Of a stretch of 6,768 nt of DNA, positions 3,550 through 6,648 are shown piece by piece. Below the pieces are notes generated by a model that was not told where the DNA came from, made no database searches, and worked only from the letters and a program-made list of their open reading frames with translations. This DNA is from Deltaproteobacteria bacterium (GTDB lineage: Bacteria; Desulfobacterota_B; Binatia; UBA9968). The position numbers and the translations under genes are program-made. How positions within the stretch are numbered: position 1 is the stretch's first letter; every line of letters starts with the position of its first letter. The stretch covers positions 1 to 6,768 of the forward strand of contig JAPUHZ010000332.1 in assembly GCA_027297485.1 (NCBI GenBank), written 5' to 3'.

Positions 3550-3598
3550 AAGAAGTTTTTAACATAACCAGCTAGGGATTGGCAATCCACTTAGGCTG

Positions 3599-3655
3599 AA
3601 GGCGGGAGGCAATAGGCAACGGTCTGCGAACCTTTCGCCTCATGCCTGTTGTCTT
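3599..3655. repeat. Degenerate palindromic repeat in the gatC/rnhB divergent intergenic region
   Basis: The left arm (3599-3622, AAGGCGGGAGGC followed by AATAGGCAACGG) is an imperfect inverted copy of the right arm (3631-3655, containing CGCCTCATGCCTGTTG). The inverted left arm and the right arm agree at roughly 17 of 24 aligned positions, notably GCCT..TGCCT. Nested inside is a perfect GCGAA-CCT-TTCGC hairpin (3626-3638). CAACGGTC (3617-3624) also has an exact inverted partner, GACCGTTG, at 3659-3666. The rest of the 190-base divergent gap must hold the two promoters; no consensus -35/-10 pair stood out. The repeat matters because three of its blocks recur inside rnhB. Confidence 0.55.
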
Positions 3656-3727
3656 TCTGACCGTTGGGGGCTTTTCGTTCTATGCTATTTGCAGTTCGGG
3701 CCTTTTTTGCTACAAAGGTCTTTTATG

Positions 3728-3739
3728 AAGGAGAGTCAG
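3728..3739 (+). promoter_or_regulatory. Ribosome-binding site deciding the rnhB start
   Basis: AAGGAG (3728-3733) stands six bases before ATG 3740, which is ideal spacing. A weaker AAAGG (3714-3718) precedes an in-frame ATG at 3725, and a TTG at 3689 lies further upstream in the same frame. The 3740 start has the best site, but 3725 (five residues longer) cannot be excluded. Confidence 0.6.
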
Positions 3740-4531
3740 ATGTGGCTGTCGGGAGAGATGGGGGGGACTGTGCAGCCCGGTGAAATAGAGGAAGAAGGTT
3801 ACTCCGCCGGTTTTAAGTGTATTGCAGGGTTGGATGAAGTGGGTAGGGGGCCTTTGGCTGGGCCGGTTGTGGCTGCTGCCGTGATTCTTCCCAGAGAATT
3901 TCTGGTTTCTAGTTCCGGGTTGCGAGTTGACTCGAGAGTCAAAACTCCAGACCCGGAACTGGAGATCAAAGACTCCAAGCTCCTGACATTCAAGGAGCGC
4001 GAGGCGTTGGCGCCTTGGATTAAGGAAAAAGCCCTGGCTTGGGGGTTGGGGATGGTCGCTTCCAAGGAGATAGACCGTATGAATATCTTAAAAGCCAGCC
4101 TTCTGGCTATGGCCCATGCCTTCAGGCAGCTTCAGCCGGCGCCGGATTACCTCTTGATTGACGGACCCTATGAAATTCCTCTGACCTTCTTCAAAGCGGG
4201 AGGCGGGAGAAAAATTCCTTCTACCCCATGCCTTGCGGCTCACATCTTTCCTCACCAAAGGGCCATCAAGAAAGGTGATCGTCTATGCCTTTCGATTGCC
4301 GCGGCATCCATTGTGGCCAAGGTTGCGCGGGATCAGATGATGATAGAGTATGATAAGCTCTATCCCAAATACGGATTTGCGCAGCATAAGGGCTATGGTA
4401 GTCCCTTGCATCTGGCTGCGCTCAGGCGCTATGGTCCGTCACCGATTCATCGCAGGAGCTTCAGGCCGGTCCGAGAGCTATTGGCTCCAGCATGCGATGT
4501 CGGTCCTGTTCCTCTTTTCCCCGAGGAGTAA
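3740..4531 (+). CDS. rnhB: Ribonuclease HII with two extra internal segments
   Basis: RNase HII cuts the RNA strand of RNA-DNA hybrids and nicks at single ribonucleotides in DNA, starting ribonucleotide excision repair in the cytoplasm. From ATG 3740 the product has 263 residues. All hallmarks are visible. LDEVGRGPLAGPVV carries catalytic D32 and E33. DSKLL is at 78-82. LIDG carries D141, and KKGD carries D180. SIAAASIVAKVARD follows, and the C-terminal YGFAQHKGYG and HRRSFRPV are typical. Catalysis should be intact. It is longer than the roughly 200-residue E. coli form for three reasons. There is an extra N-terminal stretch of about 15 residues. There are about 17 extra residues between E33 and D78. 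There are about 21 more between D141 and D180 (39 residues against 18 in E. coli, as I recall it). Both inserts fall between conserved blocks, probably in surface loops, and both are encoded by repeat-like DNA. yraN follows after two bases. Confidence 0.95.
   Translation: MWLSGEMGGTVQPGEIEEEGYSAGFKCIAGLDEVGRGPLAGPVVAAAVILPREFLVSSSGLRVDSRVKTPDPELEIKDSKLLTFKEREALAPWIKEKALAWGLGMVASKEIDRMNILKASLLAMAHAFRQLQPAPDYLLIDGPYEIPLTFFKAGGGRKIPSTPCLAAHIFPHQRAIKKGDRLCLSIAAASIVAKVARDQMMIEYDKLYPKYGFAQHKGYGSPLHLAALRRYGPSPIHRRSFRPVRELLAPACDVGPVPLFPEE
3903..3968 (+). repeat. 66-base palindrome embedded in frame in rnhB
   Basis: Bases 3903-3920 pair continuously with 3951-3968: 18 pairs with three G-T wobbles, including a perfect ten-base core AGTTCCGGGT (3911-3920) / ACCCGGAACT (3951-3960). 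Inside, GAGTT (3924-3928) pairs with AACTC (3943-3947), and GACT (3929-3932) pairs with AGTC (3937-3940), leaving the loop CGAG. The whole hairpin is 66 bases, exactly 22 codons. It covers residues 55-77 of the protein (from LVSSSGL to LEIK), just the stretch that is extra between the conserved AAVILP and DSKLL blocks. The structure is read directly from the sequence. That it is an inserted mobile-type repeat is inference. Confidence 0.75.
4193..4250 (+). repeat. Second repeat-like in-frame segment in rnhB, related to the upstream intergenic repeat
   Basis: This stretch encodes the extra residues between catalytic D141 and D180 (from about F151 to F170, including KAGGGRKIPSTPC). It shares three blocks, in the same order, with the intergenic repeat at 3599-3657: GCGGGAGGC (4196-4204 and 3602-3610), CATGCCT (4227-4233 and 3641-3647) and TCTTTC (4245-4250 and 3652-3657). 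The spacing differs by eight bases in one interval and by seven in the other. Its own inverted symmetry is poor. The insertion relative to the family is clear; the shared origin with the intergenic repeat is plausible but unproven. Confidence 0.4.
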
Positions 4532-4533
4532 GC

Positions 4534-4902
4534 GTGCAGAATCAAAAGCAGGTTTTAGGGAGAGAGGGTGAACTCATTGCGGAGAAATATCTCAGAAAAA
4601 AAGGCTATAAGCTCGTCGAGAGGAATTTTCGGTGTCCTTTGGGGGAACTGGATCTTATCGTCTTGGATCGTCGTGTGATAGTTTTTGTAGAGGTGAAAAC
4701 GCGCTCCGACGATCGCTTTGGGGTGCCGCTGGAATCGGTGCATCGACACAAGCAACAGAGAATGATTAAGGCAGCGCTTTTTTTCCTCAGTCGGCACCGC
4801 CTACATCACCGTGATGCAAGATTTGATGTCATCGGTATTTCATTTGCGGGTCGAGAGCCCATGGTGAGACATATCGAAAATGCCTTTGATATCACTTACT
4901 AA
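4534..4902 (+). CDS. yraN: YraN / UPF0102 family endonuclease-like protein, GTG start
   Basis: This is a small nuclease-fold protein of the UPF0102 family, found next to rnhB in very many bacteria. Its function is not firmly established, and a role in DNA processing or repair is usually suggested from the fold. From GTG 4534 the product has 122 residues, the usual length. Family features are the N-terminal G-x-x-G-E-x-x-A-E-x-Y-L pattern (residues 9-20), GELDLI (37-42, with E38 and D40) and VFVEVKTR (50-57, with E53 and K55). The last two together form the D...ExK active-site pattern of Holliday-resolvase/restriction-type nucleases. The start is chosen because GAGGAG (4523-4528) lies five bases upstream and the family consensus begins here. 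An in-frame ATG at 4492 would lie inside rnhB. The Shine-Dalgarno overlaps the last rnhB codons, so the two genes are almost certainly co-transcribed and translationally linked. Confidence 0.92.
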   Translation: MQNQKQVLGREGELIAEKYLRKKGYKLVERNFRCPLGELDLIVLDRRVIVFVEVKTRSDDRFGVPLESVHRHKQQRMIKAALFFLSRHRLHHRDARFDVIGISFAGREPMVRHIENAFDITY

Positions 4903-4921
4903 GGAGTTCATTAGTAAGGTG
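4893..4921 (+). repeat. Stem-loop overlapping the yraN stop codon
   Basis: CTTACTAA (4895-4902) pairs perfectly with TTAGTAAG (4911-4918) around the loop GGAGTTCA. With a bulged G at 4919 the stem extends by two more pairs (CA at 4893-4894 with TG at 4920-4921). The yraN TAA is part of the left arm. No T-run follows, so it is not a standard terminator. It could protect a 3' end or slow ribosomes. Confidence 0.45.
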
Positions 4922-4929
4922 TCATCAGG

Positions 4930-5026
4930 CGACCGAGGGGCGAGTCCTGGAGAGCGCGGGCACAGGGACGTGAAGGTTGCGTTCTGGCCCGGGCGGTGGG
5001 AATAGCCACCCTATACCCTGCGGTCG
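4930..5026 (+). ncRNA. Candidate structured RNA or leader between yraN and serS, unidentified
   Basis: This non-coding stretch is clearly more GC-rich than its surroundings. It folds into a closed structure. CGACCG-AGGG (4930-4939) pairs with CCCT-CGGTCG (5016-5026, one bulged G), closing the element. Inside, CGGGC-CAG (4957-4965, one bulged A) pairs with CTG-GCCCG (4984-4991). GTCC (4944-4947) can pair with GGAC (4966-4969) as an alternative or pseudoknot. GGTGG (4995-4999) and CCACC (5006-5010) form a hairpin with the loop GAATAG. I compared it by memory with SRP RNA, tmRNA, RNase P, 6S and the common riboswitches and recognised none. It may be the serS leader or an independent small RNA. 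Strand is assumed from the flanking genes. The pairing is seen; the function is unknown. Confidence 0.45.
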
Positions 5027-5027
5027 A

Positions 5028-5033
5028 TATAAT
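5028..5033 (+). promoter_or_regulatory. Perfect -10 hexamer TATAAT upstream of serS
   Basis: TATAAT lies 60 bases before the serS ATG, directly after the closing stem of the candidate RNA. No recognisable TTGACA-like -35 sits at 16-18 bases upstream (that segment reads around AGCCACCC), and there is no extended TG. It is a candidate serS promoter only. If it is used, the structured region upstream would not be part of the serS mRNA. Confidence 0.35.
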
Positions 5034-5053
5034 TTGAGTCTGACCTGACGGTT

Positions 5054-6382
<1,329 letters not shown>

Positions 6383-6387
6383 TCCCC

Positions 6388-6458
6388 AGCGGTCAGCTTG
6401 AATTCCGGACAGGATTAAAGTTAGCTTATAAACTGAGAGCCAACGGCTATAAGCTGAT
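6388..6458 (+). repeat. TAGC/TCAGC-type repeat and hairpin between serS and tRNA-Ser(UGA)
   Basis: AGCGGTCAGC (6388-6397) recurs exactly at 6579-6588. AGCTTATA (6423-6430) pairs perfectly with TATAAGCT (6448-6455), extended to eleven pairs with wobbles (6420-6430 / 6448-6458). A competing small hairpin AGCC-AAC-GGCT lies at 6438-6448. TATAAA at 6427-6432 could serve as a -10 for the tRNAs, but no good -35 accompanies it, and co-transcription with serS is equally possible. Confidence 0.4.
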
Positions 6459-6470
6459 CGCTGTGAAAAT

Positions 6471-6559
6471 GGAGGGGTGGCCGAGCGGTTTAAGGCACCG
6501 GTCTTGAAAACCGGCGTCCACTGCGTGGACCGCGAGTTCGAATCTCGCCCCCTCCGCCA
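6471..6559 (+). tRNA. tRNA-Ser, anticodon UGA (reads UCA codons)
   Basis: This is a complete 89-base class II tRNA. Acceptor GGAGGGG (6471-6477) pairs with CCCCTCC (6549-6555), followed by discriminator G and an encoded CCA (6557-6559). Anticodon stem CCGGT/ACCGG (6498-6502 / 6510-6514) encloses the loop CTTGAAA, with anticodon TGA at 6505-6507. The long variable arm GTCCAC-TGC-GTGGAC (6516-6530) is the serine identity feature recognised by the SerRS coiled coil. T arm GCGAG-TTCGAAT-CTCGC is at 6532-6548. It is a direct substrate of the upstream serS product. Confidence 0.98.
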
Positions 6560-6569
6560 AAAATTGCAC

Positions 6570-6648
6570 TCAGCAGTTAGCGGTCAGCCAGAAAAAAGAT
6601 AATGCTCGAAAGTTCTTTGCTGAGCAAAGATGGCTAAGAGCTATCAGA
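6570..6648 (+). repeat. Degenerate palindromic spacer between the two tRNA-Ser genes
   Basis: CAGTTAGCGG (6574-6583) matches in inverted form the serS leader (5057-5066), and AGCGGTCAGC (6579-6588) matches 6388-6397. The ends are inverted with respect to each other: AGCCA (6586-6590) pairs with TGGCT (6631-6635), and TAGC (6578-6581) pairs with GCTA (6640-6643). CTTTGCT-G-AGCAAAG (6615-6629) is a central palindrome. Nothing here looks coding. Confidence 0.45.

Follow-up and report, generated by a model that had tools for sequence, protein, structure and literature searches.

The window, by which we mean the whole 6,768-nucleotide stretch of DNA that was analysed, has gatB, gatA and gatC as its minus-strand genes; the plus strand has rnhB, a UPF0102 gene that we take to be yraN, and serS, and two tRNA-Ser genes come after serS. 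Analysis of rnhB (3725..4531, plus strand), which encodes the DNA-repair enzyme ribonuclease HII in 268 codons plus a stop from an ATG at 3725, revealed an intact gene whose product matched Pfam RNase_HII (PF01351) in a profile search (E 3.9e-37), and whose predicted fold matched RNase HII of E. coli and T. maritima in a structure comparison. Residues D37, E38, D146 and D185, presumably the catalytic carboxylates, were invariant in a 42-row RnhB alignment, in agreement with an earlier note on this DNA, made from its letters alone, that all catalytic residues are intact on either side of the feature considered here. The roughly 160-nt gap that separates yraN from serS (4903-5065) is moderately structured (fold z −1.77 for 4900-5095). 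An Rfam scan of the window matched only the two tRNAs, with nothing at the rnhB hairpin or at 4903-5065.

The hairpin that the earlier note placed at 3903-3968 is present there, and is contained in a larger palindromic element at 3896..3975, which was delimited by its inverted repeat and its fold and consists of 33-nt arms, 73% complementary and 14 nt apart, with mismatches in the outer part. The region 3890-3980 had a folding energy of −21.5, compared to a mean of −9.68 for shuffled sequences (z −5.05), and none of 200 shuffles folded as well. Among 2,234 overlapping 66-nt windows (step 3), the hairpin was the most stable and took all of the top seven places. Some details of the earlier description needed correction. 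The 18 outer pairs do run without a break, but only 15 are Watson-Crick and three are G.T; the palindrome is in frame, but its 66 bases start in mid-codon rather than forming 22 whole codons, and the net gain is 17 residues; and the palindrome overlaps the extra residues of the protein without coinciding with them. In an alignment of 120 homologs, the inserted residues are codons 58-80 (EFLVSSSGLRVDSRVKTPDPELE; 3896..3964, plus strand), with 23 residues replacing the six found in insert-free relatives.

Placement of the element in a loop was borne out by the predicted structure, in which the loop appears unstructured. The RnhB model of the window had a mean pLDDT of 81.6, with 128 of 268 residues at 90 or above, compared to means of 52 for residues 61-70 and 53 for residues 71-80 and values under 50 for residues 66-75. 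The position of the insert in a low-confidence part of the RNase HII model makes it likely that this is a tolerated loop. RnhB has a second variable loop (4172..4255, plus strand), which ranged from 12 to 65 residues in the homologs measured and which relatives fill with different repeat-like peptides. Repeat-like second-loop peptides seen in closely similar RnhB proteins included VQKVQDVQNDLNDLN, GERQQAEDRREATGNRQ and EYTGNEYTNN; the corresponding stretch of the window showed no unusual folding (z +0.78).

Heptamer construction of the element and neighbouring repeats

The arms of the rnhB element are inverted arrays of 7-base units, reading TTTCRRG forward and CYYGAAA back. The left arm (3896..3928, plus strand) comprises the heptamers TTTCTGG, TTTCTAG, TTCCGGG and TTGCGAG, and the right arm (3943..3975, plus strand) the reverse heptamers AACTCCA, GACCCGG, AACTGGA and GATCAAA, the units of the window copy being degenerate. 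Identity at lag 7 was 0.64 in the left arm (3896-3930), with 0.62 at lag 14, compared to a lag-7 mean of 0.26 (sd 0.09) for the window; the right arm was weak at lag 7 (0.38) and reached 0.58 at lag 14. When 35-nt windows were ranked by lag-7 identity, counting places separately if more than 30 bases apart, a site at 3593 came first and the left arm (3895) second, both at 0.64, followed by 6565 (intergenic), 3928 (the right arm), 4017 (coding sequence) and 6361 (intergenic). The peak at 4017 is probably due to chance. No second copy of the TTTCRRG-type unit was found within the 6.8-kb window.

The first-ranked site proved to be an intergenic palindrome (3593..3654) in the gap between gatC and rnhB, about 240 bases upstream of the rnhB element, which was recognised from pattern matches and lag-7 identity and is built of AGGCNNN heptamers in a forward and then a reverse array. 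Five of the six matches to AGGCNNN in the window fall within it, compared to 0.82 expected in the whole window, and lag-7 identity was 0.65 over 3593-3625; its fold was weakly better than chance (z −1.68). This palindrome and the rnhB element share an architecture but differ in their unit.

A further set of heptamer repeats, of AGCTNAT type, lies in intergenic DNA at 6358-6465, 5057-5083 and 6565-6600, with strong hairpins after serS (fold z −3.77 for 6360-6475, with one of 200 shuffles as good). The AGCTNAT-type pattern matched 18 times in the window, some of these in coding sequence, compared to 5.55 expected.

Arrays of TTTCGAG or of TTTCGGG are free of stop codons in all six frames, a property held by 8,264 of the 16,384 possible heptamers, and arrays of TTTCAAG or TTTCAGG have stops on one strand. 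Because three 7-base units make up 21 bases, the heptapeptide is the same whichever frame of an array is read; the copy in the window, being degenerate, contains stops in two of six frames. The conserved DSK codons that follow the insert begin with GACTCCA (3971..3977, plus strand), which lies in the heptamer phase of the right arm and matches AACTCCA at six of seven positions, a grade of match reached by 74 of the 13,522 heptads of the window. This in-phase match, a single case chosen after looking, is suggestive of seeding by microhomology, with the DSK codons as a possible seed site.

Carriers, non-carriers and nested inserts

Comparison with the best 120 RnhB relatives of at least 7,998 scored candidates revealed an insert at this place in 17; the other 103 had a short loop, mostly RGxxHPx before DSKLL. 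RNase HII of E. coli likewise showed a 17-residue gap relative to the window protein at this point. The clean absence of the extra residues that the earlier note proposed to look for in orthologues, which amounts to about 17 net residues, is therefore common among these best-listed relatives. The occurrence of the short loop also in distant rows, together with the gap in E. coli, indicates that the short form is most likely ancestral. The nine organisms named among the 120 were five Candidatus Binatota or Binatia, three 'Deltaproteobacteria' and one Acidoferrales, which points to Binatota as the probable host of the window.

Carriers were interleaved with non-carriers. A quick tree, computed with the insert columns removed beforehand, required 12 changes of state, eight of them forced by starred (well-supported) branches, and a tree with the 17 carriers as a single clade was rejected (p-AU 1.6e-36). 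For example, P0005 and P0060 are alike almost throughout, including a long second loop, and differ at the insert loop, and eight of the ten members of the starred group that contains P0006 and P0011 are non-carriers, P0042 among them. A clade of P0005, P0008 and P0010 that leaves out P0060 was not rejected against five other rows (p 0.658; the constrained tree scored higher). A reversion in P0060 is therefore not required, and the 12 changes may be an overcount. Across 51 pairs the insert had a mean identity of 0.63, compared to 0.65 for the core, and of all 55 pairs it was higher than the core in 23 and lower in 32. The insert is thus about as conserved as the core, which is slower change than would be expected for a useless loop, if the insert is old.

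A query with the insert region of P0006 returned seven proteins, of which one, the partial P0138, was a new carrier. The window RnhB matched five loci in genome contigs at 37-45% identity, none of them informative on the insert, and 30 loci in viral contigs, where identity was 33-46% except for a 33-residue match in L134. L134 was considered as a viral carrier and rejected, its match merely ending near the insert loop.

To look for traces of the palindrome in the carrier peptides, the best hairpin over all synonymous codons of each insert was compared with 100 shuffles of the same peptide. Whole inserts were tested for 13 of 18 carriers (the 17 and P0138, leaving out P0004, P0007, P0013, P0014 and P0138). 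For all ten tested inserts from P0001-P0017 the score exceeded the mean of the shuffles, of which between 0 and 8 in 100 did as well; the insert of the window (P0001) was the weakest of the ten, at 8. The 22- and 23-residue inserts of P0025, P0034 and P0069 were not outstanding (26, 15 and 88 of 100, respectively), nor were two of four nested peptides (90 and 45 of 100), and the other two were borderline (7 and 8 of 100). Ten 29-residue segments of P0001, including two that overlap the insert, served as controls; their lowest values were 4 of 50, in a segment that overlaps the second loop, and 7 of 50. The palindrome in the other carriers is a putative one deduced from their peptides, DNA having been read for the window carrier.

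Several inserts appear to contain others. P0009 has a plain insert, and in P0013 and P0014, with flanks much alike, GTTRSFDGLRIDPEQGRR replaces part of it; P0138, compared by reading, has an insert of the P0013/P0014 type with two further stretches inside, PSINSGPELVEG and ASTELSRMS. P0004 and P0007 hold another nested stretch, which includes DPSMNSGSTR. These nested pieces may derive from widespread TTCGACRRGCTCAGG-type palindromes. Together, the interleaved alleles and the nested inserts suggest that this working gene continues to receive small repeats.

Peptides of the same units were also found in other proteins. A query for insert-like peptides returned 20 proteins at E values up to 10 from 1,662 candidates, three of them the RnhB carriers P0006, P0009 and P0011. 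Most of the matches in other genes were weak by score, and their repeats were evident by reading. These included a PrmC (E 0.21, a weak score) in which 33 residues containing heptamer peptides immediately precede the SAM motif, compared to three residues in E. coli; an NAD epimerase with heptamer-peptide insertions at two places; and, by reading, a partial FlhF-like GTPase, a glycosyltransferase and an Lnt fragment with such peptides inside. In P0125 (CheR) and P0131 (MurF) the peptides were at the C-terminus, and in P0127 (AroA), P0128, P0130 and P0137 they were near the N-terminus and might reflect a wrongly assigned start. The remaining matches were hypothetical proteins, some of them largely repeat. 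The named sources of the matches were a Planctomycetota and a Desulfobacterales. In addition, these peptides point to a source of odd sequence in protein predictions, as SKLETRN- and FRVSSFE-type segments resemble translated repeats.

In contigs of a viral collection, the strict heptamer pattern had no match and a looser pattern matched 99 stretches, in 32 of which the tract lay within a stop-to-stop frame of at least 200 codons. Five of the 99 loci (L015, L033, L046, L068 and L081) had inverted TTTCRRG arrays within 160 nt, and in all of these except L033 the loop started and ended with GGCAAAGCC- or GGCTTGGCC-like sequence.

Origin of the insert

We consider it probable that the rnhB insert is a coding palindromic repeat that works in the manner of the Rickettsia palindromic elements (RPEs), belongs to a separate, heptamer-built family and occupies a loop that is used recurrently, its spread being a matter of inference. 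On this reading, an 80-base repeat element with inverted arms of 7-base units would have inserted in frame in the RNase HII loop that connects the second strand to the DSK motif, where it would be translated as about 23 unstructured, tolerated residues of no apparent use to the enzyme. The element could have spread as a DNA hairpin, through strand slippage or template switching, with seeding favoured where the host sequence already resembles a heptamer, such as the GACTCCA of the DSK codons. Closely similar genes would then differ at the loop through recent insertion or through exchange of short tracts between related strains.

A plausible though somewhat doubtful alternative is that a single ancient insertion was inherited and then scattered in Binatota by homologous recombination of rnhB alleles, without any further insertion of repeats at this loop. 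The boundaries PR-E..LE-IKD, or close variants of them (PAE..LGIND in P0017), are common to the carriers, and of the 17 inserts 11 have 23 residues, those of P0025 and P0069 have 22, and the four longer ones hold nested stretches. Furthermore, P0006 and P0009 have identical inserts at a core identity of 80%, indicating that exchange of allele tracts explains some of the scatter, and deletion of a repeat could not restore the GxSHPx loop of the close relatives P0060 and P0042. However, the nested inserts of P0004, P0007, P0013, P0014 and P0138 suggest new insertions at the loop, and the insert variants differ from clade to clade.

Mobilisation in trans by a transposase, as for a MITE- or REPIN-like element, appears unlikely. 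Two studies do describe REPs as short intragenic elements with inverted repeats (PMC3733652) and link REPINs to RAYT transposases (PMC3116915). In the rnhB element, however, each arm is an array of heptamers whose unit sequence varies and not a fixed end, 3896-3975 lacks a GTAG or CGTC end tag, and about six target residues were replaced.

There is still less to recommend selection for a longer loop, for instance for contact with a partner or substrate, with the palindrome as a by-product. The conservation of the insert at about the level of the core would fit such selection, but insert-free close relatives are common, disorder is predicted for the loop, the heptamer periodicity is a property of the DNA that is common to the intergenic palindrome, and unrelated proteins hold peptides of the same units. 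Finally, it is very improbable that the hairpin regulates the rnhB message as an RNA structure, through attenuation or mRNA stability. Its rank as the most stable fold of the window would suit such a role, but it matches no Rfam family, lies well within the coding region and goes with an insert that most of the best-listed relatives (103 of 120) lack.

As an extension of the preferred reading of a heptamer-built coding repeat, we tentatively raise the rather speculative idea that heptamer palindromes are active, tiny in-frame insertions in housekeeping genes of several phyla. Arrays free of stops in six frames (TTTCGAG, TTTCGGG) would help such insertions, and seeding at unit-like codons would make the DSK loop a recurrent landing site, with several repeat families piled inside one another.

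Relation to known repeats

The best-known protein-coding palindromes are those of Rickettsia, and to our knowledge their mode of spread is not settled. The comparison with RPEs drawn in the earlier note is apt as an analogy, since the rnhB element is likewise an in-frame palindrome in a conserved protein gene and is absent from close relatives; that note does not cover the heptamer-built arms, the intermingling of carriers and non-carriers, or the further inserts nested in some carriers. In PMC2229807, RPEs are described as Rickettsia-specific palindromes of 105-146 bp that sit in frame within conserved protein genes and are translated, and the gmk product with an RPE insert stays active with a changed substrate affinity. 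REP-like RPE-4 and RPE-6, which may be shorter than 105-146 bp, are mentioned in PMC3733652. In contrast to RPEs as described in PMC2229807, the rnhB element spans 66-80 bp, has heptamer arms, probably belongs to Binatota and shows interleaved presence and absence at one site.

PMC3733652 also reports intragenic REPs with GTAG or CGTC tags as short palindromes in ORFs, including many genes of DNA synthesis and repair, with dimers or groups coding for 20-30 residues and some ORFs hit twice. The rnhB element resembles these as a short palindrome in the ORF of a DNA-repair gene, but differs from REPs and REPINs, which are palindromes of 20-40 bp with a GTAG or CGTC tag at one end, in that 3896-3975 has neither tag and the arms are tandem heptamers. 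REPINs go with a RAYT transposase gene; the six window proteins that were searched included none.

The 7-base periodicity of the rnhB element, with its left-arm lag-7 identity well above the window mean, is a feature of heptanucleotide repeats. According to PMC4679880, PMC4692102 and PMC2700814, the repeats TAACTGA and GGGNATC and the heptamers of Geobacter metallireducens lie between and sometimes within genes and form mainly direct arrays; the cyanobacterial STRR likewise count among heptanucleotide repeats. A forward array of TAACTGA stops all frames, and most of its intragenic copies are described as lying at protein ends (PMC4679880), while for Geobacter a number of the heptamer sites are depicted as loops on two strands as well (PMC2700814). 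The arrays of the rnhB element, in contrast, are inverted and interior to the protein. PARCELs, as presented in PMC2996958, are palindromic coding sequences spread across unrelated lineages; unlike the single insert in a housekeeping enzyme seen here, they are tandem domain repeats, many of them in membrane proteins.

In searches of the open PMC literature, the rnhB element was not found by name, with a query of sequence words matching only plant telomere work, nor was the combination of inverted heptamer arrays with a recurrently occupied loop, interleaved alleles and nesting. In sum, coding palindromes (RPEs), intragenic REPs and heptanucleotide repeats are each known separately; at the rnhB loop, closely similar alleles with and without the insert, together with a nested series, would make the steps of insertion reconstructable from DNA.
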